Shown here one piece after another: positions 1,610 through 15,080 of a DNA stretch of 35,749 nt (within the stretch, counting starts at the first letter, position 1; every line of letters starts with the position of its first letter). Source of the DNA: Thermomicrobiaceae bacterium (GTDB lineage Bacteria; Chloroflexota; Chloroflexia; Thermomicrobiales; Thermomicrobiaceae); NCBI GenBank assembly GCA_014874455.1, contig JADBJL010000057.1:1-35749 (forward strand). The letters run 5' to 3'. A program made the position numbers and the translations under genes. Under the pieces are notes generated by a model. The model was given only the letters and a program-made list of their open reading frames with translations, searched no databases and was not told the DNA's origin.

Positions 1610-2464
1610 TCAAGGGCGCCGCTCGCCACGGCCACGGTCGCGCTGGGGCGGCTCGTAGGGGAGCGGGATGTATTGCACCGATGGTCTCCGCTGTGCCGTC
1701 TGCGGGTAGAGGTCCATGAGCTGGTAGACCTCTTCCGGGATACCGGTCGTGACCGGCAGACCCAGCGCCTTTGCCTCCTCGACGGTGATCGGGTAGTCAT
1801 GCGTCCACTGCCCGCAGGTGAGCGTATCCGCCAGTGGCTCGGCCTGCTCTCGTTGCATCCCGTTGGTGGTGAGGATTTCGATCACGGTGGCTCTCACCTG
1901 CCGGAGCGCTTTCTCGCCGATGTCGGCGAAGACCAGCGTCTGGTCGTCGATCTCAGCGATCGGCTTCTCCCGGACGACCCGGAGGAGCGAGGCAACGGGG
2001 AATTGCCCGATCTGGGGATCGACCGGCCCGAGCACTGCGTTCTCGTCCATCACGATCTCGTCGGCCGCCAGCGCGATCAGCGTCCCGCCCGACATCGCGT
2101 AGTGCGGCACGAAGACGGTCACTTTGCCCTGATGGCGGACGAGTGCCTGGGCGATCTGCTCCGCCGCCAGCACCAGCCCACCAGGCGTGTGCAGGATGAG
2201 ATCGATCGGCAACTCGCCGGGCGTCAGGCGGATAGCCCGAAGCACCGCCTCGGCGTCCTCGATATCGATGTAGCGCGCTATCGGCAACCCGAGAAACGAG
2301 ATCGACTCCTGGCGGTGGATCAACGTGATCACGCGCGTGCCGCGACGGCGCTCGATCAGGTGGATCGTCCGCAGACGCTGCGCGTCCAGCAAGCGACGCT
2401 GCACGACCGGAGTGAGCGCGGAGAAAAGAAACAAGAGCCAAAACAGGAGGCCGATGAGTTCCAT
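1610..2464 (-). CDS. SDH-family (ClpP/SppA-fold) membrane serine protease
   Basis: The 284-residue protein begins with one hydrophobic anchor (residues 2-20). A ClpP/crotonase-fold domain of the serine dehydrogenase proteinase family (SDH_sah, formerly DUF114) follows. Visible landmarks are HTPGG at 92-96, the nucleophile context YAMSGGTLIAL with the likely catalytic Ser125, and DEIVMDENAVLGPVDPQIG at 135-153, which is strongly conserved in this family. It is probably a membrane-anchored protease facing the cytoplasm and involved in membrane-protein quality control. It starts at an ATG preceded by CAGGT and is divergent from pspA, a neighbourhood that fits envelope stress. The C-terminus is basic and low-complexity. 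Its true substrate is unknown. Confidence 0.85.
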   Translation of the reverse strand: MELIGLLFWLLFLFSALTPVVQRRLLDAQRLRTIHLIERRRGTRVITLIHRQESISFLGLPIARYIDIEDAEAVLRAIRLTPGELPIDLILHTPGGLVLAAEQIAQALVRHQGKVTVFVPHYAMSGGTLIALAADEIVMDENAVLGPVDPQIGQFPVASLLRVVREKPIAEIDDQTLVFADIGEKALRQVRATVIEILTTNGMQREQAEPLADTLTCGQWTHDYPITVEEAKALGLPVTTGIPEEVYQLMDLYPQTAQRRPSVQYIPLPYEPPQRDRGRGERRP

Positions 2465-2634
2465 ACCGTTGACCTGCCCCCAACGCCCGCCGACTGGTGC
2501 CCGATCGCGTCATCCCTTGCGAGCCGAGACGACAGGAACAGGCTAACAGGAGAGAAAAGGGATCGGCAAGAGCCTGTGGAGCCTTCTCAGCCAACCGGCT
2601 CGGGGCATCGCTTTCCTCGACTCCCGCTCTCCCC

Positions 2635-2640
2635 TATAAT
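2635..2640 (+). promoter_or_regulatory. pspA promoter, -10 box
   Basis: A perfect TATAAT lies 38 bases before the pspA ATG and predicts a leader of about 30 nt. The -35 region (around 2611-2617, CTTTCCT) is weak. No sigma-54 GG-N10-GC element is seen, so control differs from the PspF/sigma-54 scheme of enterobacteria. Confidence 0.6.
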
Positions 2641-2678
2641 CATCTTCGGCAGTCCGGGGCGGAAAGGAGAAAAGCGTC

Positions 2679-3419
2679 ATGGGATTGATCTCCAGGATGA
2701 CCACGCTGATCAAGGTGAAGCTGAGCCGGTTGCTGGATCGGGCCGAAGACCCTCGAGAGACGCTCGACTACGCCTATGAGCGGCAACTCCAGCTCTTGCA
2801 GGAGGTACGTCGTGGCATCGTCGATGTCACGACCTCCAAGCGCCGGCTCGAGCTGCAGCGCGCCAAGCTCCAGGAGAGCCTGGAGAAGCTGGCGCAGCAG
2901 GCGCGACAGGCAGTGGCGGCCGGCCGCGAAGACCTCGCGCGCCTGGCCCTGGAGCGCAAGGCCGTGGCCCAGCAGCAGGTCGCGACGCTCGACCAGCAGA
3001 TCGCGGGGCTGGAGCAGGAGCAGGCCAAGCTCGAGCAGGCGGAGACGAGGCTGCGGGCAAAGGTCGAGACCTTCCGCACACGCAAGGAGGTGATCAAGGC
3101 CCAGTACTCGGCCGCCGAGGCCCAGGTGCGCATCAACGAGGCCGTGACTGGCATCTCCGAGGAGATGGCCGACGTCGGACTGGCCCTCGAGCGCGCCGAA
3201 CAGAAGACCGAGCAGATGCAAGCCCGGGCCGGGGCCATCGACGAGCTACTCGCCTCGGGCGCTCTCGAGGATCTCACCGCCGGGCCACAGGACACGATCG
3301 AGCGCGAGCTGGCCCGTATCAGCGTGAGCGAGTCGATCGACGCCGAGCTGGCGGCACTGCGTCGCGAACTGGGGCAGCCTGAACAGCCCAAGCAACTCGG
3401 GGAGGGGAGCAGTTCATGA
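2679..3419 (+). CDS. pspA: PspA/IM30 family membrane-stress protein
   Basis: The 246-residue protein is predicted to be almost wholly alpha-helical coiled coil. It opens with an amphipathic helix (MGLISRMTTLIKVKLSRLLDRAEDP) followed by the family hallmark DPRETLDYAYERQ, then long Gln/Glu/Arg heptads with many LEQ and AQQ stretches up to about residue 190. The C-terminal part has ELARIS and AELAALRREL. PspA/IM30/Vipp1 proteins are bacterial ESCRT-III relatives that polymerise on damaged inner membranes and limit proton leakage. The start is fixed by GGAAAGGAG upstream of the ATG. The stop overlaps the start of pspAA (ATGA), so the two genes are translationally coupled. Length is close to the family norm. 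Confidence 0.93.
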   Translation: MGLISRMTTLIKVKLSRLLDRAEDPRETLDYAYERQLQLLQEVRRGIVDVTTSKRRLELQRAKLQESLEKLAQQARQAVAAGREDLARLALERKAVAQQQVATLDQQIAGLEQEQAKLEQAETRLRAKVETFRTRKEVIKAQYSAAEAQVRINEAVTGISEEMADVGLALERAEQKTEQMQARAGAIDELLASGALEDLTAGPQDTIERELARISVSESIDAELAALRRELGQPEQPKQLGEGSSS

Positions 3420-3694
3420 TCGTGCGGATCGCCACCGAAGGGCAGTACCGGCTGGAGAGCGCCTATCTCGACCAGCTCAACAGTGCCGACAACGCGCTGG
3501 TCGAGGCGATCGCTGCGGGCGACGAGGAGCGCTTCCGGATTCTCTTGCAGAAAATGCTCGACCTGGTACGCCAGCACGGGCAGCCGGTGCCGGCTGACGA
3601 GTTCGTCGAATCCGATATCATCCTGCCCCCGCCCGACACGACGTTCGAAGAGGCGCGCGAGCTGTTCGCTGGCGAGGGTCTGATACCCGGTTGA
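3416..3694 (+). CDS. pspAA: PspA-associated protein PspAA
   Basis: This small 92-residue acidic protein begins MIVRIATEGQYRLE and contains LNSADNALVEAI, ending with ADEFVESDIILPPPDTTFEEARELF. The pattern is that of PspAA, the partner found directly after pspA in many Chloroflexota, Actinobacteria and archaea. It has no membrane segment or signal peptide. The start codon overlaps the pspA stop in ATGA, which supports coupled expression and stoichiometric action with PspA. Its molecular role is not established; it probably modulates PspA assembly. Confidence 0.88.
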   Translation: MIVRIATEGQYRLESAYLDQLNSADNALVEAIAAGDEERFRILLQKMLDLVRQHGQPVPADEFVESDIILPPPDTTFEEARELFAGEGLIPG

Positions 3695-3754
3695 CCAAGG
3701 CCGCGGCGACTGCAACACGCGTCCACTGGAGTGGCAGGGAGCAGGCGGCTCGAG

Positions 3755-4327
3755 TCAGAAGGGGATACCCCACAGGGGATACCAGCGCTCGAGTTCCGGC
3801 TCCACTGGAAGCTCGCGCTGGAGCGCGTTCGCCAGGCGCAGCTCGAGCGCGTGGTCGCGCTGCTGGTTGCCGCGTGGAGCGAAGGGCGTGAACCGGCCGC
3901 GCTTGTACTGGTAGATCCAGTAGAATGGCTGGCCCTCCGGGGAAGTGAAGCGGAAGACCGCGGCCAGAAGTTGCTCCCCGAACCCCTCCTCGAGGAGGGT
4001 CTGCGCCAGCATGTGGACGGCCGTGATCAGATCCTCGAAGTCGGGATCGCTCAAGATGACCCAGCGGTAGCGATAATGGTCGATCTCCGTACGGTACGTG
4101 GTACCGGCTTCACGCGCGCTGACCGCCAGTAACTCGTCGAGTTCGTCGCTCGCCCGGTCGAAATACGGGGACTCGACCGGGCGGAAGACCAGGGCCGCCT
4201 CCTGCCCCGGCTGGAAGCCGAGCTGGGCCTCCATGGTGACGACAGCCGTGGAGAGTGCGATCAGCCCCTCGCTGCGGGCCGGCGGTGGCTGAGACCGCCC
4301 CAGCAAGATGTCCAGCAGGCGCTTCAC
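3755..4327 (-). CDS. pspAB: PspA-associated protein PspAB
   Basis: The 190-residue soluble protein matches PspAB, which accompanies PspA and HtpX in several phyla. Recognisable stretches are the start MKRLLDILLGRSQPP, STAVVTMEAQLGFQPGQEAALVFRPV, DDYRYRWVIL-like text (HYRYRWVILSDPDFEDLITAVHM) and the aromatic end FYWIYQYKRGRFTPFAP. No catalytic motif is evident. Its start codon overlaps the htpX stop by four bases, so it is the second gene of an htpX-pspAB operon that converges on pspA-pspAA. In other genomes all four genes may be co-directional; here the set is split into two facing units. Function is unknown beyond its association with the Psp response. Confidence 0.85.
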   Translation of the reverse strand: MKRLLDILLGRSQPPPARSEGLIALSTAVVTMEAQLGFQPGQEAALVFRPVESPYFDRASDELDELLAVSAREAGTTYRTEIDHYRYRWVILSDPDFEDLITAVHMLAQTLLEEGFGEQLLAAVFRFTSPEGQPFYWIYQYKRGRFTPFAPRGNQQRDHALELRLANALQRELPVEPELERWYPLWGIPF

Positions 4328-5238
4328 AGCCCCTCCATCTCCCGGGCCAGCTCGCGCAGTCGCTCCAGCCGCCGCTCCAGCGACGGGTGAGTCGAGAAGA
4401 GTTCCAACAGCGCACTGCCTTTGATCGCCGGGATGATAAAGAAGGCGTTCAGTTTAGAGACCTCGCGCAGGTCACGGTCGGGAATGCGCTGCATGACCCC
4501 GCTGATCTTGAGCAGCGCGGACATGAGCTGCGACGGCGCACCGGTGATCAGGGCCGCGCCGCGGTCGGCCGCGAACTCCCGATACCGCGAGAGCGCGCGG
4601 ATCAAGAAGAAGCTGATAACCGAGACCAGCAACGACGCCAGATAGACGATGATGAACGCGTTGCCGCCGTCTCGCCGGTCACGCCTGCCACCCCAGGCAC
4701 TGCCCCAGTACGCCCAGCGCAGGACGAGCTGGGCCACGACCGCGAAGAAGCTGGCGATCGTGATCACCATGACGTCGCGGTTGCGCACGTGGCTGATCTC
4801 GTGTGCCAGCACTGCCTCCACCTCGCGCGGCTCCAAGGTGTCCAGGAGCCCGGTCGTCACGGCGACCACTGCCGCACGCGGGCTGCGCCCGGTCGCGAAG
4901 GCGTTGGGAACCGGCGTGTCGACGATAGCGACCTTCGGCTTCGGCACGTCGGCCAGCGCCGCCAGCCGCTCGACCATGGCGTGGAGATCGGGGGCCTGCT
5001 GCGGATCGACGACCCGGGCACCGACGCTCAAGAGCGCGATCTTATCGGAGAAGAAGTACTGGAACCCGGCCATGATCACTGCGATGACCAGGATGGTGAT
5101 CGCGTCGTACCCCGAGGCTACCAGCACCGCCATGAAGGCCAGGTAGACGACTGCCAGCAAGCCCATGACGATAACCATCCGAGCTGCAAGGCCCGGATCG
5201 CTGCTCCACTTGATCACCCGGCGCATCGAGTACGCCAT
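4324..5238 (-). CDS. htpX: HtpX-type M48 zinc metalloprotease
   Basis: The 304-residue polytopic membrane protease has two N-terminal hydrophobic segments (about 20-45 and 47-65), the zinc site HEISH at 146-150 with the third-ligand region REFAADRGA (Glu221), and two more hydrophobic segments between them. HtpX degrades misfolded inner-membrane proteins with its active site on the cytoplasmic face. An upstream in-frame start exists at 5259, but ATG 5238 is preferred: AAGGAG lies 7 bases before it and the sequence MAYSMRRVIKW fits the family start. It is the first gene of the unit with pspAB, so membrane-protein proteolysis is tied to the Psp system. A consensus -10 box lies just upstream. Confidence 0.92.
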   Translation of the reverse strand: MAYSMRRVIKWSSDPGLAARMVIVMGLLAVVYLAFMAVLVASGYDAITILVIAVIMAGFQYFFSDKIALLSVGARVVDPQQAPDLHAMVERLAALADVPKPKVAIVDTPVPNAFATGRSPRAAVVAVTTGLLDTLEPREVEAVLAHEISHVRNRDVMVITIASFFAVVAQLVLRWAYWGSAWGGRRDRRDGGNAFIIVYLASLLVSVISFFLIRALSRYREFAADRGAALITGAPSQLMSALLKISGVMQRIPDRDLREVSKLNAFFIIPAIKGSALLELFSTHPSLERRLERLRELAREMEGL

Positions 5239-5274
5239 CGCTGAGCTCCTTAACGGCACCCACTAACCTCCGGA

Positions 5275-5280
5275 ATTATA
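5275..5280 (-). promoter_or_regulatory. htpX-pspAB promoter, -10 box
   Basis: The minus strand has a perfect TATAAT 37 bases upstream of the htpX start, giving a leader of about 30 nt. The best -35 at 17 bp spacing is CTGAAG, matching TTGACA at three positions. No second operator-like repeat is apparent in the 5281-5487 spacer shared with the divergent ABC1 gene. Confidence 0.6.
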
Positions 5281-5487
5281 CTCTCGCTGAGAAACGGCTT
5301 CAGTTACCGAGGACGTGGCGATGCCGCGCGAGCGCAGCCGGGCGAGGTCAAGGCGGTTCGGCGTCGCGAGTTCGTCGCTGACCACCAGGTTCGAACCCGA
5401 TATGAGGACAGTGGTGCAGCCGATCACTGGCCATCCAGGTGTCGGCCGCACGACGAGGCGAGCCTCTCAAGCGGGCCTGCGCTGGCA

Positions 5488-7173
5488 ATGGTAACGCCGA
5501 GGGGCTTCTTCCCGCGCGAGTTTCTCCATCACCGTCGCCGCGTGGGCGAGATCATCGCCGTGCTGTCACGGCACGGCCTGGGGTGGGTGCTCGACCAACT
5601 CGGCTTCGGTACGCACGCGGCACGCGAGCGAGGCCGCCTGCGCGGCGCCCGGCTCGATCACCGTGTGGCTGGAGCAGCCCATCTACGCATGGCTCTCGAG
5701 GAACTCGGCCCAACCTTCATCAAGATCGGCCAGATACTCTCGACACGCGAAGATCTCCTCCCGGCCGAGTACATCAGCGAGCTCGCCCGGCTGCGCGATC
5801 GCGTTCCGCCAGTGCCCTTCGACGCGATTGTCCAGGAGATCGAGCGCACGTTCGGCCGGCCGATGGCCCAGCTCTTCGCCGAGTTCGATCCCGAGCCGCT
5901 GGCGTCAGCCTCGATCGGGCAAGTGCATGCGGCCAGGCTTCATCTGGGCACGACCGTTGTCGTGAAAGTCCGGAAACCGGGCATCGCCGAGACGATCGAG
6001 GAAGACCTGGCCATCTTGGCCCAGCTCGCACGGGCAGCACAGCGGCGCGCCCCGCTGGCCGAGTTCTACGATCTGGTCGGTCTGGTCGACGAGTTCGCCT
6101 GGACGATCCGTGCCGAGCTGGACTACCGGCGCGAGGGCCGCAACGCCGACAAGCTGCGGCAGCAGTTCAGCGACAACCCCGCTATCGTCATCCCGAGTGT
6201 GATCTGGGAGCGAACGGCCGAGTCCGTGCTCACGCTCAAGCGGATCGACGGGATCCCGATCGACGACGTCGCCGCGATCGATCGCGCCGGGATCGATCGC
6301 GCTGCTCTCGCTCAGCGCGCCGCGCGGATCGTGCTCGACGCCATCCTAGTACACGGGTTCTTCCACGCTGATCCCCACCCGGGTAACTTCGCAGTGCTCC
6401 CCGATGGGCGTATCGTCGCCTATGACTTCGGCATGGTCGGCCGCCTCGACCCGGTCATCCGCGACAACCTGCTCGACGCGCTCGTCGGTGTCATTCGCCA
6501 GGAGCCCGACCGCGTGATCGACGCCTTGATCCGGCTCAACATCATCCGCCACGAGGCCGAGCGCGCAGGCCTGCGTCGCGACTTGCAGCACCTGCTCGAC
6601 CGATACTACGGTATGGCTCTCGGAGAGTACCGGCTGCAGGAGATCGCGAGCGACCTCCTCGCCATCGTGCGCCGGCGACACCTCGTGCTGCCCACTGAGT
6701 TGATGCTCGTGCTCAAGACCTTGATGATGCACGAGGGAGTTGGCCGTCATCTCGACCCAAAATTCGAGCCATTCACCGTCGCCGAGCCGTACGTCCGCCG
6801 CATCCTGCTGGAACGATACCTGCCTCAGAGCTGGTTACCGAGGCTGACCGAGACAGCGGACGACAGCATTCGGTTGATCACGGAGTTACCGCGTCGCATC
6901 GACCGGCTGCTCCGCCAGCTCGAGCACTCGGACATCGAGGTCACGATGCACATCGCCGAAGTACAGCAGATCATTCAGCGCCTCAGCGCCATGATCAACC
7001 GGCTGGTCATCGCTATCCTCGTCGCTGCCGGCCTGATCAGCCTGGGCCTGTTGCTCTCGGTCTGGCATCCCGACTGGCTGATCGGCTGGTTGGGGCCGGT
7101 GATGGGCGTCGGTGTCGCGGTACTGTTGGCGACCAGCGTTTTGCTTGCCTGGCGTGTCCTCCGCGGGCAGTGA
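5488..7173 (+). CDS. ABC1/UbiB/ADCK family kinase-like membrane protein
   Basis: The 561-residue protein belongs to the atypical kinase-like ABC1 (AarF/UbiB/ADCK) family. It shows the KxGQ segment FIKIGQILSTR (77-87), the alanine-rich nucleotide loop ASIGQVHAA (141-149), the likely ATP-binding Lys160 in VVVKVRKPG, the HADPHPGNF catalytic loop near 285 and the metal-binding YDFGMVGRL segment. Two transmembrane helices close the protein (about 505-525 and 535-557). Family members support quinone biosynthesis or lipid homeostasis; here the quinone would probably be menaquinone, so the name UbiB should not be read literally. The ATG at 5488 has no good ribosome binding site, but no better in-frame start is visible. 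It stands as a single gene and converges on the DksA-like gene. Confidence 0.9.
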   Translation: MVTPRGFFPREFLHHRRRVGEIIAVLSRHGLGWVLDQLGFGTHAARERGRLRGARLDHRVAGAAHLRMALEELGPTFIKIGQILSTREDLLPAEYISELARLRDRVPPVPFDAIVQEIERTFGRPMAQLFAEFDPEPLASASIGQVHAARLHLGTTVVVKVRKPGIAETIEEDLAILAQLARAAQRRAPLAEFYDLVGLVDEFAWTIRAELDYRREGRNADKLRQQFSDNPAIVIPSVIWERTAESVLTLKRIDGIPIDDVAAIDRAGIDRAALAQRAARIVLDAILVHGFFHADPHPGNFAVLPDGRIVAYDFGMVGRLDPVIRDNLLDALVGVIRQEPDRVIDALIRLNIIRHEAERAGLRRDLQHLLDRYYGMALGEYRLQEIASDLLAIVRRRHLVLPTELMLVLKTLMMHEGVGRHLDPKFEPFTVAEPYVRRILLERYLPQSWLPRLTETADDSIRLITELPRRIDRLLRQLEHSDIEVTMHIAEVQQIIQRLSAMINRLVIAILVAAGLISLGLLLSVWHPDWLIGWLGPVMGVGVAVLLATSVLLAWRVLRGQ

Positions 7174-7192
7174 GACGAGGAACTCCGCCCGG

Positions 7193-7588
7193 TCACGCTC
7201 GACGGCGGGATCGGGCAGCATCCAGCTTCTGCTGGTCGCGGACGCACCGCAGCGCCCAGGGGATAGCTTCCAACCGCTCGCGCTCGATCGGCTGGCCACA
7301 GTCGACACAGATCCCGTAACTACCGCTGTCGAAACGCTTGAGCGCGGTCTTCACCGCGTTCAGCTCGTCCTCGAGCGCCCGGCTAATGGTGGTATCGACT
7401 TCCGCGGCGAGCAGATCGGACGCCTCATCGGCGGGGTGGTTGGCAACCGGCCCCTCCTCGTCCTGGTACTGTGACTCGGCCTGAACGACGGAGCGGAGGT
7501 CGCTGAGCTGCCGCTCGAGCTGCGCCTGGTGCTCGAGTAAACGTTGCCGCATCACTTCGAGCCATGCGGGATCCAATGCCCTGGACAC
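7193..7588 (-). CDS. TraR/DksA-family zinc-finger transcriptional regulator
   Basis: The 131-residue protein has a long helical N-terminal half able to form the coiled coil that enters the RNA polymerase secondary channel (about residues 8-85). The family signature GSYGICVDCGQPIERERLEAIPWALRCVRDQQ follows near 89-120. In this finger C94, C97 and C115 are present, but the fourth ligand position is Asp118, so the site is Cys3-type or metal-poor. The start is GTG at 7586-7588 with GGGAGGAAAGC before it. It is the last gene of the treT-containing run, 126 bases after treT, and may be co-transcribed with it. DksA-like proteins modulate initiation during starvation. Whether this one responds to ppGpp is unknown. 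Confidence 0.88.
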   Translation of the reverse strand: MSRALDPAWLEVMRQRLLEHQAQLERQLSDLRSVVQAESQYQDEEGPVANHPADEASDLLAAEVDTTISRALEDELNAVKTALKRFDSGSYGICVDCGQPIERERLEAIPWALRCVRDQQKLDAARSRRRA

Positions 7589-7714
7589 GCTTTCCTCCCT
7601 TGCATTGCGACTCGACTCCCTGCACGGGTTCCAGGCCCCGAACCGTCACTCCGAACCGCTGTGGAAGGAACCCCCTGTCGCTTGCGCCCATCCACATGCG
7701 TCACGCCAGGAGCG

Positions 7715-8959
7715 CTAGCGACCAAGAAGTTCACAGATGAACGTCAGCTCGTCCTCGATCATTCGCGTGATCAGGAAACGGCGGCGCACGTGCTCCTTGC
7801 CTCGCCGCGCCAACCGCCGAGCCTCGTCCCGATGGTCAAGCAGGTACCGCACACGCTCGATGAAGCCCGGCTCGTCGAGCGGATCGACCAGCAGCGCGTC
7901 GGCAGCCGCTGGCACCTGCAGCGCTATCCCACCGGTGCGTCCCGCGACGATGGGCGTCTCCTTCCACAACGTCTCGCTGACCACGAGCCCGAACCCCTCC
8001 CGAATCGACTTCTGGATCGCGACATCGGCACAGTGCTGGAAAGCGTTCACCTCCACACTGCTGATTCCGGTGAGATTACTACCCACGTGGATATCAGGGT
8101 CATCACCCGCATCAGCTCGGATCTGCTCGTAGAGATACCAGCCCTCCGGGTCATCGTGAGCCATCGAGCCGAGGAGGGCAAGCTGCAGTCCCGGAACGGC
8201 CTCACGGACAGCACGGTAAATTCGCAGCACCCCCAGGGGATCCTTCCAGGGATCGAAGCGCGAGACCTGGAGAAGGAGCGGGCGACGCCGGTCGACGCCG
8301 TGCCAGGTGACGATGCGCTCGCAGACGTCGGCCGGCAGTCCGATGTTCTTGGGGCTGAGCGGATCGATCCCGGGGGGAATGATTCGAACCCGCCTGCGCC
8401 GCAATGAGGGCAGGACGAACGATTCCAAGGTGAAGATGAATGCATCGTATGGCTCCAGAAAGGGGGTGAGAAAGTCGGCGACTTCCGGGTTGGGCTCGGA
8501 GGTATCGATGTGGCACCGCCAGATCCAGCGCCCTCGCGCGTTGGCTTGGAAATGCCTAATCGCTGCTGGCTGCGGGTCGTGGACGATATAGACATCGTAG
8601 TTGCCGTCCAACCGGCCGGCGTTCGCCGCGCTATTGTGCAGGTAGATCTCCTTCGCTTCGGGCGCGAGCGTGTAGCGTCCACCTTGCAGCGCGTTATGAA
8701 TCCCCTTCGTCACCTCGAAGAAGCGCGTGTCACCGGCAATCACCTGCCAGTCCACCTGCAGGCCGAGCCCGAGGAGCAATGCCACCTCCGAACGAAGGAG
8801 TTCGGAGACGCCTCCCCCATACGGAGTGGCGTTGATGTGGACAATGCGGACACCGCGCAGTCGATCTGACAGCGCACGCAACCGGGTGATCACGTCCTCG
8901 CCGACGAGCGGCTGGTAGGAGTCCAGCGGCATCGGGGTGAGATCGACACGATGCAACAT
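7715..8959 (-). CDS. treT: Trehalose synthase TreT (glycosyltransferring, GT4)
   Basis: The 414-residue GT-B glycosyltransferase matches the TreT family (trehalose glycosyltransferring synthase, EC 2.4.1.245), which makes trehalose from NDP-glucose and glucose. The N-terminal domain carries VHINATPYGGGVSELL (40-55), typical of TreT. The C-terminal nucleotide-binding domain has QVSRFDPWKDPLG (231-243, with Arg234 and Lys239) and the retaining-enzyme E-x7-E motif EGFGLVVSE (Glu321 and Glu329). Length agrees with the archaeal and thermophilic bacterial enzymes. The gene follows pncB after 44 bases and precedes the DksA-like gene. Trehalose acts as a compatible solute or thermoprotectant. Trehalose phosphorylase-type relatives share the fold, so substrate direction is inferred. 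Confidence 0.88.
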   Translation of the reverse strand: MLHRVDLTPMPLDSYQPLVGEDVITRLRALSDRLRGVRIVHINATPYGGGVSELLRSEVALLLGLGLQVDWQVIAGDTRFFEVTKGIHNALQGGRYTLAPEAKEIYLHNSAANAGRLDGNYDVYIVHDPQPAAIRHFQANARGRWIWRCHIDTSEPNPEVADFLTPFLEPYDAFIFTLESFVLPSLRRRRVRIIPPGIDPLSPKNIGLPADVCERIVTWHGVDRRRPLLLQVSRFDPWKDPLGVLRIYRAVREAVPGLQLALLGSMAHDDPEGWYLYEQIRADAGDDPDIHVGSNLTGISSVEVNAFQHCADVAIQKSIREGFGLVVSETLWKETPIVAGRTGGIALQVPAAADALLVDPLDEPGFIERVRYLLDHRDEARRLARRGKEHVRRRFLITRMIEDELTFICELLGR

Positions 8960-9003
8960 GGGTGCGCTCCTTAACCAGCTTGCGCCGGGCCGCTAACGCC
9001 TCG

Positions 9004-10368
9004 TCAAAGCCCCTCGCGTGTCCGGATCATAGTGACGGCGTCCTGCTGGCGTGCCCGGAGTACAGGGCTGAGCTGCACCGGATAAGGCTCCACCCGATCG
9101 ATGCGTCGCAGCGCCTCCGGTAGTCGCTCCATCTCAGCGAGGTGCTCCGCACGGAGCACCGCCAGCGACGGGAGCTCCAGTACCTGCCCACCACGCATCA
9201 CCGGCTGGAGCAACGGTCGCCACTCGGGCCCCGGTGGTGCCTCGTCGCGCGCGGCGATCACATCCCCGTCGTACCGCCCGTTCTCCGCGGTATGCCGCCA
9301 GACCTGCTTCGCCCCGACGAGGGTCTGCTTGCCTGTGCTGAGCTTCAACGCCGGGTGGCCTGCGTACTCGACCAGTTTGTAGGCCATATCGACGAGTGGA
9401 GCGTCGTCGGAGGTGCCGAGCCGGGAACCGACACCGAAGCCGTCGATGGGCGCGCCGGCTCGAGTGAACTCTGCCAGCGCGTACTCGTCGAGCCCTCCAC
9501 TCGCGAAGATTTCGATTTCCGGGAACCCCGCTTCGTCCAGGATTCGCCGAACCTGGTAGCTTAGGGCGATCAGGTCGCCGCTGTCCAGGCGCACTGCGCG
9601 TACCCGCCGGCCTTCCGCCCGCAGCTCGCGCGCGACCTGGACTGCATGCTGTGCACCGCGAAGCGTGTCGTACGTATCGATGAGCAAGACCGGATCCCCC
9701 GGGTAGGTGCGCGCGAATGCCCGAAAGGCCTCGAGCTCGGAAGGGAAGGCCTCGATGAACGAGTGGGCGACCGTGCCGGTTACCGGGATCCCGTAGATTT
9801 CCCCGGCCAGGACGTTGCTCGTCGAGGCAAAGCCAGCCAGATAGGCCGCCCGCGCTGCAGCCAACCCCGCATCCAAACTGGGTGTCCGTCGCAGACCGAA
9901 GTCCACGAGGGTCTTCCCGGGCGCTGCTATCCGGCAGCGCGCCGCCTTCGTCGCGACCAGGCTCGGATAGTGAATCGCGTTGAGCACGACCGTTTCGATA
10001 AGCTGTGCCTGAAGGATCGGTGCCTCCACTTCCAGTATCGGCTCGTCTGGAAACAGCACCGTACCTTCACGCACTGCCCACACGTCGCCCGTAAACCGGA
10101 AGTCCGCCAGGCTATCGACGAACTCGCGCGGCAGTACCGGGAGCGAGCGCAAGTACGCGAGGGCGTCTGCGTCGAAACGAAGCTGCGACAGGTACCGGAG
10201 CGCTTCAGCAATGCCTGCCACGACCAGAAAACTCCGGTTCGGCGGGAGTTTCCGGACATACAGGCTGAAGACCGCCTTACCCTGCATCCCTAAGGTATGG
10301 TAGCTGGCGGCCATCGTCAGCTCGTAGAGATCCGTCGAGAGCGCGACCTCGTGCGGTGTCGGGGACAT
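9004..10368 (-). CDS. pncB: Nicotinate phosphoribosyltransferase
   Basis: This enzyme of the NAD salvage pathway (EC 6.3.4.21) condenses nicotinate with PRPP, coupled to ATP hydrolysis. The 454-residue product shows STDLYELTMA (11-20), VDFGLRRTPS (155-164), the likely phosphorylated His202 in TVAHSFIEAF, IDTYDT (230-235), RLDSGDL and the phosphate-binding end GFGVGSRLGTS. ATG 10368 is chosen because homologous sequence begins just after it. A GTG at 10410, overlapping the stop codon of the sigma-like gene, and a TTG at 10380 are in-frame alternatives, and the ribosome binding sites do not settle the matter. It lies between the sigma-like gene and treT on the same strand, hinting that NAD recycling is co-expressed with stress functions. 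Confidence 0.9.
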   Translation of the reverse strand: MSPTPHEVALSTDLYELTMAASYHTLGMQGKAVFSLYVRKLPPNRSFLVVAGIAEALRYLSQLRFDADALAYLRSLPVLPREFVDSLADFRFTGDVWAVREGTVLFPDEPILEVEAPILQAQLIETVVLNAIHYPSLVATKAARCRIAAPGKTLVDFGLRRTPSLDAGLAAARAAYLAGFASTSNVLAGEIYGIPVTGTVAHSFIEAFPSELEAFRAFARTYPGDPVLLIDTYDTLRGAQHAVQVARELRAEGRRVRAVRLDSGDLIALSYQVRRILDEAGFPEIEIFASGGLDEYALAEFTRAGAPIDGFGVGSRLGTSDDAPLVDMAYKLVEYAGHPALKLSTGKQTLVGAKQVWRHTAENGRYDGDVIAARDEAPPGPEWRPLLQPVMRGGQVLELPSLAVLRAEHLAEMERLPEALRRIDRVEPYPVQLSPVLRARQQDAVTMIRTREGL

Positions 10369-10409
10369 GCGAGCGCTCAAACCCTTCCGATCTCGTCGAG
10401 TGCCCGGCA

Positions 10410-11141
10410 CTAGGCGATCTCGGAGTACCTCAGTTCCCTCAACGCCTCGGCTAAGAACGCTCGGCTGATCTCAACGATCGAGCGTACCTGGTCGACCGGT
10501 ATCCCCTCAGCCGAAGCGATGACGACATCGTCCCAGCGGTCGATGGTTCGCATCAAGAACACTTCACGCCAGAGCTCCGGCAAGCGATCGAGCGCCTGAT
10601 CCAGGATCGATCGGGTCTCCTGCGTGAGCAGCATCTCTTCTGGCAACTCCGCGTGCGGGTCGGCGAGGATGTCGATCAGGCGCACCACTTGGTCGGGCCA
10701 GTCCTCGCCGACCAGCGCTACCGGTTCCTCGAGCGAGCGCTCGTGCTCGATCCGCCTCCGCTCGGCATCGATGGAACTCCTGATCACTCGCCGTGCGAGG
10801 CGGCGCAACCACCGGAACAAGCCCTGCTGCGGGGCATCGTTCGCATGCTGCAAGGCGCGGACGAGGACGGTATCGATGAGCTCGTCCTCGCTGAGCGTGT
10901 TGGGCGGGATCGTGCCCAGGCTGATCGACCGCGCCAGTTCCCGGCGAATGAAACGCCGAAGCGGTCGCACGTGCTCGACCAGTTGGGCCGCGAGTACCCT
11001 CCGTTGCTCGGCGAGCGTCATCCCGCCGGAAGACTCTCCCCGTTCCATCGCTTCTCGCTCGATGTGCGCATGCAGCCGATCGAGCAGTCGCTGTTTCAGC
11101 TCCCGCTCCGGGTCGGCCGCGCCGCGGTCTTCGACGGACAC
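10410..11141 (-). CDS. Sigma-70-family (ECF-like) RNA polymerase sigma factor
   Basis: The 243-residue protein has an N-terminal charged extension of about 55 residues. A sigma region-2-like block follows (about 60-130: LRRFIRREL, DELIDTVLVRALQ, GLFRWLRRLARRVIRSSIDAERRR), then a linker and a region-4-like block (about 178-238: LDQALDRLPELWREVFLMR, IPVDQVRSIVEISRAFLAEALREL). The layout is that of ECF sigma factors, but the region-2 promoter-melting segment and the region-4 recognition helix are poor matches to consensus. GTG at 11139-11141 is supported by AAGGAGG seven bases upstream. It follows an HPF-like gene by 113 bases; no obvious anti-sigma factor is adjacent. Promoter specificity is unknown, and it could be a divergent regulator rather than a true sigma factor. 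Confidence 0.75.
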   Translation of the reverse strand: MSVEDRGAADPERELKQRLLDRLHAHIEREAMERGESSGGMTLAEQRRVLAAQLVEHVRPLRRFIRRELARSISLGTIPPNTLSEDELIDTVLVRALQHANDAPQQGLFRWLRRLARRVIRSSIDAERRRIEHERSLEEPVALVGEDWPDQVVRLIDILADPHAELPEEMLLTQETRSILDQALDRLPELWREVFLMRTIDRWDDVVIASAEGIPVDQVRSIVEISRAFLAEALRELRYSEIA

Positions 11142-11254
11142 CTCAAATCCTCCTTCAGTATGCTATACGGTCGTCGCGCCTTGCTTCAGACGGGTCGCTC
11201 GCGCCTCGCACCAGTGCGCTGCCGAAGGTCGGCCGCTGCACCATCGACCAGGGT

Positions 11255-11626
11255 TCACTCGCTGCTTTCGGGCGGCACCGGCGGCTTCACCGTCCCAGGA
11301 TGCTGGCGTGCCCGGCGAATGACATCCTCATGGTGCAGCTTGGAGAAGAAGCGCTCGATCTCGTCATACAGGTCGCTGAAAGCATCCCGCAGTGCCTGTG
11401 CCGGGTTTCGCCCCTCGCCGCGGGTCACAAGATCGCGATCAGGGACACGCAAGAGCAAGCGCGCAGTATAGGTATCGCTGCGCTGGTGATGCTCCATCGT
11501 GATATCGAGCTGGGGCAGGTCGTCGGGAAGGTCAGCCAGGCGCCGCTCGAGCACGCGAATCTCGCGCTCGACGACGTGTTGAACCTTCGCCTGCTCGACG
11601 CCCAGGTCGTGATACCGGAACTGCAT
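11255..11626 (-). CDS. HPF/RaiA-type ribosome-associated hibernation factor
   Basis: The 123-residue protein fits the short HPF/RaiA (sigma-54 modulation, S30AE) fold: an opening strand MQFRYHDLGV, a long helix (EQAKVQHVVEREIRVLERRL), a strand LDITMEHH, then TYTARLLLRVPDRDLVTRGEGRNPAQALRDAFSDLYDEIERF, where the basic/Asp-Ala-Phe pattern is typical. Such proteins bind the 30S decoding centre and hold ribosomes inactive in stationary phase or stress. The start is ATG 11626 because TAGGAGGAG lies immediately before it; an open frame continues upstream but has no family resemblance. There is no long-HPF C-terminal dimerisation domain, only a Pro-rich tail. It heads the run with the sigma-like gene and is divergent from hsp20. 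Confidence 0.82.
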   Translation of the reverse strand: MQFRYHDLGVEQAKVQHVVEREIRVLERRLADLPDDLPQLDITMEHHQRSDTYTARLLLRVPDRDLVTRGEGRNPAQALRDAFSDLYDEIERFFSKLHHEDVIRRARQHPGTVKPPVPPESSE

Positions 11627-11814
11627 CGCTCCTCCTATCAACTGTGTCCAGTCGACTCCGATGACGTGTCCCAGCGACATCTCACGTGTCGTCGATTGAG
11701 CATAACATGCTGCACAGGTGCAAGCGGGGCAGGAGCAGCGGTGCCGGTTAGCGAAGATAGCGGGTACACTTGCTGCAGTGGCCCGCAAGGATTGTGTGAC
11801 GGAAGGGGGCTGCG
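11627..11814. promoter_or_regulatory. Divergent hpf-like / hsp20 control region
   Basis: The 188-base spacer must hold the promoters of both divergent genes. Candidates are TACACT at 11765-11770 for hsp20 and, on the minus strand, TATGCT near 11698-11703 for the hpf-like gene. Neither has a good -35 at normal spacing. The spacer has no CIRCE repeat (TTAGCACTC-N9-GAGTGCTAA). Promoter placement is tentative. Confidence 0.35.
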
Positions 11815-12243
11815 ATGAGCATCACTGGCTGGTCACCACTCCGTGAACTGGAGACGCTCCGTGAGCGGCTCGATCGGTTGGTCTCGGAGCTCACCGGCCG
11901 TGAAGGCGGCATGCTGGCGGTGCCGCTCGACGTGCAGGAAACGGCTGACTCGATCATTGTTCGTGCGTCCATGCCTGGCTTCAAGCCCGAGGATATCGCT
12001 GTCGAAATCAGCCGGGGCGTCCTCACCATTCGGGGCGAGAGCCGCGAAGAGCGTGAGGAGACCGGCGGCACCTGGCACCTCAAGGAGCGCCGGGTCGGCA
12101 CCGTCTATCGCGCCGTGACCTTGCCTGCGCCAGTGAAGGAAGACCAGGCGCAGGCATCGCTGGAACACGGTGTGCTGGAGATCCGCCTGCCGAAGGCCGA
12201 GCCAGCCCCGCAGCGCCGCATCCCCATTCAGGTACGCTCCTGA
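11815..12243 (+). CDS. Small heat-shock protein, Hsp20/alpha-crystallin family
   Basis: The 142-residue chaperone has a short N-terminal arm with WSPLRELETLRERLDRL, then an alpha-crystallin domain (about 35-128) opening with VPLDVQETADSIIVRASMPG. The domain includes the GVLTIRGE strand (68-75) and the conserved ASLEHGVLEIRLPK block (114-127). The C-terminal IPI motif (136-138) is the I-x-I anchor that links dimers into oligomers. GGAAGGGGG lies before the ATG. These ATP-independent holdases bind unfolding proteins under heat stress. The gene is monocistronic, with a hairpin directly downstream, and is divergent from the ribosome-hibernation gene. Confidence 0.95.
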   Translation: MSITGWSPLRELETLRERLDRLVSELTGREGGMLAVPLDVQETADSIIVRASMPGFKPEDIAVEISRGVLTIRGESREEREETGGTWHLKERRVGTVYRAVTLPAPVKEDQAQASLEHGVLEIRLPKAEPAPQRRIPIQVRS

Positions 12244-12261
12244 GTTCGACGTGCCGACCGA

Positions 12262-12291
12262 AGCCGGGGCGCGTTCCATCGCGCCCCGGCT
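12262..12291. terminator. Bidirectional GC-rich terminator hairpin
   Basis: A perfect 12-bp inverted repeat (AGCCGGGGCGCG / CGCGCCCCGGCT) with a 6-base loop lies between convergent hsp20 and nrdJ. Its right arm includes the first two positions of the nrdJ stop codon on the minus strand (TAG at 12290-12292). No T-tract follows on either side, so it may end transcription by a non-canonical route or protect 3' ends. Confidence 0.65.
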
Positions 12292-14074
12292 AGCCTGCAG
12301 CCCGCCGGTTCATCGACACCTCGACCGGGACGGTCTCCTCGCCCAGGCAACTCAAGCAGTGACCGAGCACCTGGAGAACCTGGCCGCGCGGAGAGCCCTC
12401 GCGAAAGACGGTCACGCCCTTACAGCCAAGCTGGTGTGCCAGCGTAAACGCCTGACGGACGTCATCGACCGTCGCCTCCTGGCGCAGGTTGATCGTCTTG
12501 CTCACCGCGTTCTCCACATGGCGTTGGACAGCAGCCTGAATCGCCAGGTGCTCGGCTGGCGAGATTTCGTCCGCCACCCGAAAGAGCATGCGCAGGGACT
12601 CTGGCAGGTCATCCCGGTGGCTGATGGTTCCGGTCACCTCGATGTCGCGCAGGAGTTCGGGGTCGAGTCGCCCCAAGCGCTGCAGCGCGCGGAGCAGGAG
12701 CGGATGCGGCTCGATGACCCCGATGAACTCCCCGACATGCTGGTAGGCCAGCGCATAGAGTGGTTCGATCCCGCTGGAACATCCAGCGATGATGCTGATG
12801 CTCCCGGTCGGCGCAACCGTCGTCACCGTGGCGTTCCGCCGTGGCTGCTGTCCAGCACTGGCATAGCGGCTGATCGGGAAGTTGGGGAACGGCCCTCGCT
12901 GGCTCGCCAGAGCCTGGCTCGCCGCCACCGCAGCGTGCTGGATCAGCCCCATCACCCGGTCGGCGACTTGCACAGCGGGTGGTGAGCCATAGGGGATCTC
13001 GAGGTGGAGCAGGAGATCGGCAAAGCCCATAATGCCGAGTCCCACCTTCCGGTTCGCCTTGCACATCGCCTCGATTTCCGGAGTCGGATAGCGCGATACC
13101 TCGAGCAGGTTATCGAGAAACCGGATCGCGATGCCAGCGGCTCGAACCAACTCCTCCTCGTTGAGGAATGCCCGGCCATCGTGCTCCTGGATAAACGCGG
13201 CGAGGTTCAGCGACCCCAGGCAGCAGGCCTCGTAGGGAAGCAGCGGCACCTCTCCGCAGGGATTAGTGGCCTCCAGGGGGCCGAGCGCTGGAGTCGGGTT
13301 ATCGCGCTCGATACGGTCGAAGAAGAGCAACCCCGGGTCGCCGACCGCCCAGGCGTTCTCGGCCATCTCGTCGAGCAGTGCCTTGGCGTTGATAGTCGCC
13401 TGCGCGGCACCGGTGCGCGGATTGATCAGCTCGACCTCGCGCCCCTCCGCCGCTGCGGCCATGAACGCATCGGTCACCAGCACGGAGAAATTGAAGTGAG
13501 TGAACGCCTGCGGATCTCGCTTCGCCGCGATGAACTCACGCACATCGGGGTGATCGAAGCGCAGGATGGCCATGTTGGCCCCACCGCGCACGCTCTCGGT
13601 CGCGATCACGTCGCTGGCGACATCGAAGATCCGAATGAACGACACCGGGCCCGAGGACGGGCGCTTCGTCGAGCGGACGAGGTCGCCGCGCGGCCGCAGG
13701 TGCGTGAAGTTAAACCCCGTACCGCCGCCGCTTTGCTGGATAATGGCTGCGTCGCGCAGCGCCTTGAAGATGCCGTCGAGAGAATCGGGTACCGGTAGGA
13801 CGAAACACGCGAGCAATTGCCCGAGCTCCGTTCCAGCGTTGATCAGGGTCGGGGTGTTCGGTAGGAAGCGTCGGGTGGTCATGAGCTCGTGGAACTGCTC
13901 AGCCACGGCCTGCTCATCGTGCCTGCCCGGGAAGGCGCCCTCTGCCGCGGCGATCGCCCTCGCCACACGCCAGAACAGTTCCTCCTCTGTCTCGATGACC
14001 TGTCCCTGCTCGTCCCGCCGCAGGTAGCGGGCTCGTAGGAGTTGTCGTGCTGTCTCGGACAGTTCGAGCGCCAT
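12290..14074 (-). CDS. nrdJ: Class II (adenosylcobalamin-dependent) ribonucleotide reductase
   Basis: The 594-residue enzyme makes deoxyribonucleotides using a B12-generated thiyl radical. By spacing with the known Thermotoga enzyme, the active site is Asn271, the radical Cys273 and Glu275 in NPCGE, with the redox pair Cys90 (LLACFVLP) and Cys284 (YEACCLG). The substrate loops QQSGGGTGFNF (113-123) and APTGSISIIAGCSSGIEP (421-438) are intact. No N-terminal ATP-cone is seen. The C-terminus is short: it keeps a CxxC (Cys573, Cys576) able to relay electrons but lacks the longer Cys-rich zinc-ribbon tail of many NrdJ proteins. The gene stands alone and is divergent from nth. I see no cobalamin riboswitch in the 200 bases upstream. 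Confidence 0.94.
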   Translation of the reverse strand: MALELSETARQLLRARYLRRDEQGQVIETEEELFWRVARAIAAAEGAFPGRHDEQAVAEQFHELMTTRRFLPNTPTLINAGTELGQLLACFVLPVPDSLDGIFKALRDAAIIQQSGGGTGFNFTHLRPRGDLVRSTKRPSSGPVSFIRIFDVASDVIATESVRGGANMAILRFDHPDVREFIAAKRDPQAFTHFNFSVLVTDAFMAAAAEGREVELINPRTGAAQATINAKALLDEMAENAWAVGDPGLLFFDRIERDNPTPALGPLEATNPCGEVPLLPYEACCLGSLNLAAFIQEHDGRAFLNEEELVRAAGIAIRFLDNLLEVSRYPTPEIEAMCKANRKVGLGIMGFADLLLHLEIPYGSPPAVQVADRVMGLIQHAAVAASQALASQRGPFPNFPISRYASAGQQPRRNATVTTVAPTGSISIIAGCSSGIEPLYALAYQHVGEFIGVIEPHPLLLRALQRLGRLDPELLRDIEVTGTISHRDDLPESLRMLFRVADEISPAEHLAIQAAVQRHVENAVSKTINLRQEATVDDVRQAFTLAHQLGCKGVTVFREGSPRGQVLQVLGHCLSCLGEETVPVEVSMNRRAAG

Positions 14075-14282
14075 AGTCGCCTCCGATACTCACGAACTGC
14101 GTGGACGGGGTAGCAGCCTCGCTTCTCACGAAGCATGGTACACGCGCAAGCATACCGAAACTCGGGTTCCGGCCGTGATCGCGAGAGGATCGAAGGCTTC
14201 GGCCGCGGCACCGGTATACTCTATCGAGCGACATCGGCTGACCGCTTCGCTCCGACCTGGGCCGTTCGCTGGGAGACGCTCG

Positions 14283-15080
14283 ATGAACCTGAGCAGCCCC
14301 AACGCGGTGAACGAAGCCGCCCACGCTGAACACCACAGGAAGATCGAGCAGATCCTCGCTGCGCTCGAGGCATGCTACGGCCGGCCCGTTCACCACCAGC
14401 ACGGGGACGTATTGGAAGAACTCGTCGGCACCATCCTTTCCCAGAACACCTCGGATGTCAACAGCGAACGGGCGTACCGGTCGTTGCGCCAGACGTTTCC
14501 TGACTGGCGTGGCCTCACCCGCGCAAGCGACGACGAGATCGCCGAGGCTATACGTTCGGCGGGTTTGAGCCGCCAAAAGGCACCCGCGATTCGGGCAGCG
14601 GTCGCGGCGCTTCTCGACGACGGGTACGAGGAACGAGTGCGCTGGCTTCGTGAGGCCCCGCTGGAGGAAGCACGCGCCTGGCTCCAATCGCTGCCCGGGG
14701 TGGGCCCGAAGACGGCCGCCTGCGTCCTCCTCTTCGCTCTCGGCCGCCCGGCGCTCCCCATCGATACACACGTCTACCGGGTCTCTCAACGCCTGGGGCT
14801 TCTTCCACCGGGTATCTCGGCGAGTGCCGCTCACCGCTCTTTGGAATCCCTCGTGCCTTCCGAGGACGTTTTCCGGTTTCATGTGCTCCTCATCCGCCAC
14901 GGGCGCGCTGTCTGTCGTGCTCGCCGTCCGATGTGCGAACGCTGTGTGATCACTGACCTCTGCGACTACTACAATCGAGCGCAGCGGGCAAGCCATCCGA
15001 CCCGCGAGCGGCACGGTGCTCAGCAGACGCAGCCAGCCGCTCGCCAGCCTGTCGACGCTCATCGATCATCTCAGGGATAG
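14283..15080 (+). CDS. nth: Endonuclease III (DNA glycosylase/AP lyase)
   Basis: This 265-residue HhH-GPD base-excision repair enzyme removes oxidised pyrimidines and nicks the abasic site. The helix-hairpin-helix LPGVGPKTAACVLL carries catalytic Lys143, catalytic Asp161 lies in LPIDTHVYRVSQRLG, and the [4Fe-4S] loop is complete as C211-x6-C218-x2-C221-x5-C227. ATG 14283 has GGGAG seven bases upstream; an in-frame upstream start at 14175 would add an unconserved 36-residue leader. The protein ends with a basic, Gln-rich tail of about 35 residues not typical of the family. It is divergent from nrdJ and is followed co-directionally by the metallo-hydrolase gene. Confidence 0.93.
   Translation: MNLSSPNAVNEAAHAEHHRKIEQILAALEACYGRPVHHQHGDVLEELVGTILSQNTSDVNSERAYRSLRQTFPDWRGLTRASDDEIAEAIRSAGLSRQKAPAIRAAVAALLDDGYEERVRWLREAPLEEARAWLQSLPGVGPKTAACVLLFALGRPALPIDTHVYRVSQRLGLLPPGISASAAHRSLESLVPSEDVFRFHVLLIRHGRAVCRARRPMCERCVITDLCDYYNRAQRASHPTRERHGAQQTQPAARQPVDAHRSSQG

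Follow-up and report, generated by a model that had tools for sequence, protein, structure and literature searches.

Does a row of co-oriented genes on one contig of a Thermomicrobiaceae bacterium (Chloroflexota) form a single stress regulon, or does it hold a smaller functional unit among ordinary neighbors? The window studied here is the entire 35,749-base contig JADBJL010000057.1 (assembly GCA_014874455.1, 3.37 Mb in 114 contigs). Between positions 7193 and 12243, genes for an HPF-like protein, an extracytoplasmic function (ECF) sigma-like protein, PncB, TreT and a DksA/YteA-like protein follow one another in that transcription order on the minus strand, and hsp20, on the plus strand, diverges from the HPF-like gene. 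The original prediction took the five minus-strand genes for one regulon that would bring cells into a state of protected dormancy, possibly autoregulated by the sigma-like protein. The layout it described was borne out, with gaps of 113, 41, 44 and 126 bases within the row and 188 bases between hpf and hsp20, and the gene identities in the cluster amount to more than chance. We find it moderately likely that the core of the locus is a two-gene module of the hpf-like and ECF-sigma-like genes with the divergent hsp20, that is, a hibernation-factor/sigma stress module. The pairing of a hibernation factor with a sigma factor beside hsp20 therefore survives from the earlier interpretation, and the membership of pncB and treT in one regulon with them does not.

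An HPF-like protein beside a divergent sigma factor relative

The HPF-like gene (11255..11626, minus strand) encodes a short-form protein of 123 amino acids, counted from its ATG, with a predicted S30AE fold. PF02482 (gathering score 23.7 bits) does not match this protein at E up to 1, and a longer open reading frame (ORF) starting from TTG (11788-11255) is likewise without a Pfam match. Since Pfam gives no match, the HPF-like identity rests on a profile, a predicted fold and bridging relatives. The top match of a profile built from 12 relatives (profile A1) is the HPF structure 9t0z (E 2.2e-4), with designed proteins ranking close after it and further HPF/YfiA entries from E 0.017. The AlphaFold model has the b-a-b-b-b-a element order of HPF/YfiA, at a mean predicted local distance difference test score (pLDDT) of 76 and with 2/5 models at only about 50. 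All 20 Foldseek matches with E < 0.001 are HPF/YfiA/RaiA or hibernating-ribosome entries, and the closest structure by VIA-align is RaiA 8rd8_D, from a complex with Balon (Z 13.5; root-mean-square deviation (rmsd) 1.5 over 96 residues). Among relatives, PF02482 exceeds its cut-off in L086 (38.3 bits) and in the L085 fusion protein described below (24.0), and falls short of it in L095 (22.1), the L084 fusion (20.7) and L081 (17.4); the L083 fusion is unmatched. A Pfam scan of the 123-residue protein did not find PF16321, the C-terminal domain of long HPF. On these predictions the window protein would fold like HPF, and we do not claim strict PF02482 membership for it.

The adjoining gene (10410..11141, minus strand) encodes a divergent ECF-type sigma-70-like protein of 243 amino acids, which scores 50.0 bits against the sigma70-ECF superfamily model TIGR02937 (cut-off 42.9). 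Pfam region 4 reaches 23.2 bits in this protein, below its 25.7 cut-off, and Pfam region 2 was not detected in it. Foldseek places sigma factors, mostly of the ECF type, in the first ranks for the predicted model; superposition over the full length is poor, and the predicted region 4 superposes on its DNA-binding counterpart in E. coli sigmaE (2h27_D) with an rmsd of 1.7 over 61 columns. In region 2.2 the ECF consensus is 'QE', which is missing from the corresponding stretch, aligned by eye, in 15/15 aligned proteins.

Linkage beyond local synteny

Neighborhoods were surveyed within the Chloroflexota. Among 61 genomes searched, the window's own included, 24 have a sigma-like match and 14 hold the hpf-like and sigma-like genes in association, 12 in the window's order and 2 reversed. 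The reversed cases, G015 and G017 (G, L, C and g numbers label genomes, loci, contigs and genera), belong to another genus, g4. Their sigma-like gene precedes the HPF-like gene, and neither stretch has a pncB, treT or dksA match. RtcB and archease come next after the pair in G017, and an hsp20-like match lies 3.7 kb from the pair in G015. In the remaining three g4 genomes the HPF-like match is missing, and the sigma match is either absent or marginal (G013). In the sigma tree the g4 copies group with other copies and not with the window type (support 82/86). The 'HPF-linked' state requires two changes on this tree, and it may also have had a single origin. A scan of genome contigs with two short peptide patterns gave 11 loci. 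Because the pairing is reversed in g4 and a fusion of the two occurs in another class (see below), an association of hpf-like and sigma-like genes that exceeds local synteny is supported.

Relatives of both genes are also found in other company. A full-length sigma relative in G133, 36% identical to the window sigma over 190 residues, stands upstream of a baeRF10 gene and two hsp20 genes (L150:383-3417), so that hsp20 occurs in a similar setting outside the window-type loci too. In G004 (L081:6311-7825) the HPF-like gene is followed by small genes, one of them DUF2171, and similar small genes occur in G009 and G012. In G265 (L095:1231-5665) a row of Usp, baeRF10 and a B12-type ribonucleotide reductase includes the HPF-like gene that scores 22.1 bits against PF02482; nrdJ lies near hpf in the window too.

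HPF-sigma fusions in another class

Three genomes from a different class of the Chloroflexota each have a single ORF with an HPF-like N-terminal half and a C-terminal half resembling sigma region 2. These ORFs lie at L083:3716-4414 (G196, complete), L084:5854-6513 (G133, where the frame leaves the contig, so the end is missing) and L085:6444-7121 (G297, complete), and the two complete ones are without region 4. Across the junction, the G196 and G297 proteins share 51% and 52% identity with the G133 one. By hhalign, the N-terminal half pairs with the window HPF family at 98% probability. Each C-terminal half gives matches to between two and five sigma models, with best E values of 3e-4 to 4e-3 and all of them far below curated cut-offs, and the L083 fusion matches Pfam region 2 at E 0.009. 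Full-length fusions are present in 3/29 genomes of that class, and the same three were found in the phylum sample of 400 genomes, where 7 candidates per genome were scored with the fusion profile and absences are soft. With the HPF-like profile, 13 of 400 Chloroflexota genomes gave a match, the three fusion proteins being among the distant ones, again with soft absences (11 candidates scored per genome). The C-terminal half of the fusion profile alone matches frames in 33 genomes, of the window's family or others; the two of these frames that were checked are both ECF sigmas (TIGR02937 78.2 and 64.3 bits).

In G297 the fusion comes last in a row (L085:6444-8920), downstream of a region-4-only gene of the window's sigma family, a baeRF10 gene and a 92-residue ORF with no family match. 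The gene ends overlap by 4-8 bases as called, and an AhpC/TSA gene lies further along. The separate region 4 is 62% identical to the full-length G133 sigma. Inspection by eye of the 0.7 kb preceding the fragment, in the three frames of its strand, showed no region 2. Estimated contamination of the three fusion genomes is 5-9%, and a plasmid-collection search with the L084 fusion returned zero matches. We found no description of a fusion among the papers listed in searches of open-licence PubMed Central (PMC) text for an HPF-sigma pair or fusion; the fused HPF-sigma protein would be the part of this work new to specialists.

The fusion also bears on two further readings. The sigma-like protein could be a mimic that parks RNA polymerase instead of recognizing promoters, with the HPF-like protein as its ribosome-side counterpart. 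A region 2 too divergent for Pfam, the 'QE' missing from all 15 proteins aligned by eye, and complete fusions (G196 and G297) that carry region 2 without region 4 all fit such a mimic, as does the joint resting of the E. coli transcription and translation machineries described in part of a published account (PMC6904343). However, the predicted fold of region 4 is like that of sigmaE and the TIGR02937 score is above cut-off, and we regard a mimic as decidedly improbable. Alternatively, the fusion and the HPF-like/sigma pair could be a device for physical coupling of ribosome and polymerase, in which the HPF half would sit in the decoding site, the sigma region-2 half would hold the RNA polymerase clamp, and ribosome and polymerase would go to rest or wake jointly; two interacting proteins would do in the window what the fusion does elsewhere. 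Such a coupling device is, in our judgment, highly unlikely.

Gene order within the family

The order hsp20/hpf/sigma/pncB is constant in 12 loci of three genera, the window's own included, and hsp20 adjoins hpf in all 12 of these window-type loci. The full order, including treT and the dksA-like gene, is found in the window and in 7 further genomes of genera g1 and g6, a count that excludes G018 and G019, whose loci were not extended. The G002 stretch ends inside treT, and the G005 cluster is without treT, yet its pncB adjoins the dksA-like gene.

This conservation extends far beyond the cluster. When stretches fetched from five relatives were compared, 44 window ORFs had a match in one or more of them. 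Of these, 38 lie at 7193-35652, and of the 38 the collinear ORFs are 37 in G011, 36 in G005, 37 in G001, 38 in G003 and 34 in G008, where the fetched stretch stops at or short of three of the four missing ORFs (order was read from coordinates, and ORFs were chosen for having a match, which favors conserved genes). The collinear block contains S9, L13, L17, RpoA, S4, SecY and L24 (seven genes scanned, at 18-30 kb). None of the 6 matched ORFs to the left of the cluster occurs in the 60 kb fetched for two Thermomicrobium genomes, and the cluster is the edge of the collinear block. Because about 28 kb is collinear in the same genomes, adjacency within the family means little and is not above background. 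The gene order of the original prediction is kept in three genera, but this is unremarkable, since nearly all of 7.2-35.7 kb is collinear.

The hpf-sigma adjacency could itself be meaningless, a case of background synteny beside a conserved ribosomal-protein region. The collinear block, whose 18-30 kb part holds ribosomal-protein, rpoA and secY genes, is consistent with this, as are HPF-like genes without sigma in g2 and sigma copies without HPF. Yet background synteny fails to explain either the reversed pairing in g4, which comes without pncB, treT or dksA, or the fusion in three genomes, and we consider it unlikely.

Several observations nonetheless weigh against a hibernation-factor/sigma module. 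Three g2 genomes (G004, G009 and G012) keep the HPF-like gene without any sigma match, and G021 and G025 have HPF-like and sigma matches on separate contigs. The window's genome also encodes a canonical long HPF elsewhere (L087, PF16321 93.1 bits), and hhalign finds no match between the window HPF family and this long HPF, taken as a single sequence (0.5%). Judged by Pfam the sigma-like protein is degenerate, and in hhalign the fusion region 2 resembles the sigma alignment only weakly (25%, E 7.7e-4). Furthermore, the second sigma-family copy of the genome, on contig C100 (L040:6001-6798), has no window-HPF BLAST match in the 13 kb around it, and the remaining sigma-family loci have none within about 1.5 kb or more, although BLAST with the window HPF could overlook distant HPF homologues beside further sigma copies.

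pncB, treT and the YteA-like gene

The pncB gene (9004..10368 from its ATG, minus strand) encodes a nicotinate phosphoribosyltransferase (NF006696 623 bits, cut-off 503), and treT (7715..8959, minus strand) a TreT-type trehalose synthase, a glycosyltransferase that exceeds the cut-off of the PF21269 domain (166.6 bits against 27) and scores 398 bits against the Thermococcales model NF041139, below its cut-off of 775. The small heat-shock gene hsp20 (11815..12243, plus strand) scores 74 bits against PF00011 (cut-off 20.8). The product names first given to pncB, treT, hsp20 and the sigma-like gene hold, as does hpf-like, in its case without a Pfam match; DksA in the strict sense does not. Adjoining the cluster, at 1610-5259, lies an envelope-stress-like set of a ClpP-like SDH-type protease, PspA/IM30, PspAB and HtpX. 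Neither Rfam nor tRNA scans gave a match in the window.

Outside the collinear block, pncB and treT part company. Searches for pncB (E 1e-20) and treT (E 1e-40) in 19 further genomes from the family and order found pncB in 15/19, treT in 8/19 and both in 7, all of them from other genera of the family. The two genes are on separate contigs in 7/7 such genomes (in G004, one on each of two contigs), although these are drafts in which adjacency across contig ends is possible, and in 3/7 (G004, G009 and G012) the pncB match is merely 39% identical and may represent another subfamily. The 24 fetched flanks of pncB and treT (up to 1.5 kb) contain no further cluster gene; pncB of G007 is adjoined by ubiB. 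Thus pncB and treT are probably neighbors in a local arrangement, outside the module.

The last gene of the row (7193..7588, minus strand) encodes a member of the DksA/TraR superfamily (PF01258 43.9 bits, cut-off 24.9). Its best model is the YteA model TIGR02890 (101.6 bits, under the 134.4 cut-off), and it misses all DksA equivalog models (NF033459, 52.1 against 105 bits; TIGR02420, 41.8 against 115.5; NF008045, 21.8 against 289), on which ground we rejected DksA proper. The zinc finger reads CxxC...CxxD and not four cysteines, with the fourth cysteine replaced by aspartate in 8/9 aligned species; the G005 protein retains four cysteines, and the motif HPADxA(S/T)D is present in 9/9 aligned YteA-like proteins. 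In G021, of another family (L147:1459-2919), an HPF-like ORF on the minus strand and a YteA/DksA-like gene on the plus strand lie about 0.7 kb apart with a 111-residue ORF between them, and the HPF-like ORF begins MTVRYHDYG, resembling the start of the window family. This locus is the one case in 178 with a YteA-like match and no pncB. Whether the YteA-like gene is a member of the module is undecided.

These observations bear on the proposal that hpf, sigma, pncB, treT and the dksA-like gene are one stress operon leading to a protected dormant state. The genes share a strand and are separated by short gaps, no terminator-like site was found between them (a weak test), and the full order recurs in the 7 genomes of g1 and g6; the YteA-like gene near the HPF-like gene in G021, in another family, might extend the association. 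That same order, however, is embedded in the roughly 28 kb of collinearity in the same genomes, treT is gone from the G005 cluster though pncB and the dksA-like gene remain, and in sister genera 7/7 genomes in which both were found have pncB and treT on separate contigs (with the caveats of draft assembly and of three pncB matches at 39% identity). A single operon of all five genes is therefore quite unlikely, and we rejected the five-gene dormancy regulon, pncB and treT included, on these grounds.

Promoter region and proposed action

The divergent intergenic region (11627..11814, 188 bases) carries a −10-like hexamer on each strand, TATGCT on the hpf side and TACACT on the hsp20 side. In related species, and as raw counts, TAT[CG]CT is found near the hpf start in 10/10 species, where 58-89 nucleotides separate the hexamer from the last base of the ATG, and TA[TC][AG]CT near the hsp20 start in 9/10; TCGGCA-17-TATCCT precedes hpf in 5/5 Thermomicrobium sequences. 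The elements shared upstream of the two genes resemble −10 boxes of housekeeping promoters. They lend no support to the predicted autoregulation by the sigma-like protein, which may nevertheless occur. A promoter and terminator scan of 7000-12400 found nothing above shuffled sequences.

For the hibernation-factor/sigma module we infer the following course of events. Stress or slow growth would raise the HPF-like and sigma-like proteins together through joint expression of their genes. The HPF-like protein would bind the ribosome, sitting in the 30S decoding region and idling it, and the sigma-like protein made alongside would bind RNA polymerase and redirect or hold it. Since no anti-sigma gene was recognized among the scanned neighbors, control may be exerted at synthesis or by the HPF-like partner. 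The hsp20 gene would be transcribed from its own promoter, facing away, and pncB and treT, which lie behind the pair only in part of the family, may receive read-through transcription.

Comparison with known systems

Sigma-factor switching and ribosome hibernation are mostly treated as separate subjects. A pair that occurs in two orders and as a fusion opens a direct molecular link between idle ribosomes and RNA polymerase to tests with purified proteins. The locus also illustrates that gene order in one family proves little, as the proposed regulon mostly dissolves after checks of collinearity and of sister genera.

With the HPF/YfiA/RaiA (S30AE) hibernation factors the window protein shares its predicted fold and element order, and it differs from them in lying under Pfam detection and in being without the C-terminal domain of the genome's other HPF. 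In Proteobacteria hpf has a neighborhood with rpoN, the source of the name 'sigma-54 modulation protein', so a hibernation-factor gene adjoins a sigma-factor gene there as well. The sigma factor in that case is sigma-54, whereas here it is an ECF-type sigma-70 relative that in other genomes of the phylum is fused to the HPF-like protein at the domain level.

Genes of the baeRF group are described near HPF genes in part of the text of Burroughs and Aravind (2019, PMC6514570). In the baeRF-1/HPF neighborhoods reported there, HPF genes adjoin release-factor paralogues, and so they do in G297 and G265; the available portion of that text draws no HPF-sigma link, and in it 'sigma' appears twice, in the reference list only. 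Coordinated hibernation through Rsd and RMF, with transcription and translation rested together, is described for E. coli in the available part of PMC6904343, and involves other proteins joined by shared regulators rather than by gene pairing or fusion.

The closest parallel is with the Balon genes, which, according to the portion of Helena-Bueno et al. (2024, PMC10901736) available here, share operons with RaiA, Hsp20, alternative sigma70 factors and RtcB. Window-type loci and their relatives have comparable neighbors, with a hibernation-factor gene alongside hsp20, a sigma-70 relative or RtcB, and the window differs in having a divergent, short HPF-like gene. A Balon gene itself is not among the window's close neighbors, as no baeRF10, which we take to be of the Balon kind, was found among the ten proteins scanned at 4324-15080, and the genome's single baeRF10 match (PF18854) is on contig C54. 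By analogy, the hsp20, hpf-like and sigma-like set may best be read as a variant of the published RaiA/Balon/sigma70/Hsp20 stress operons.

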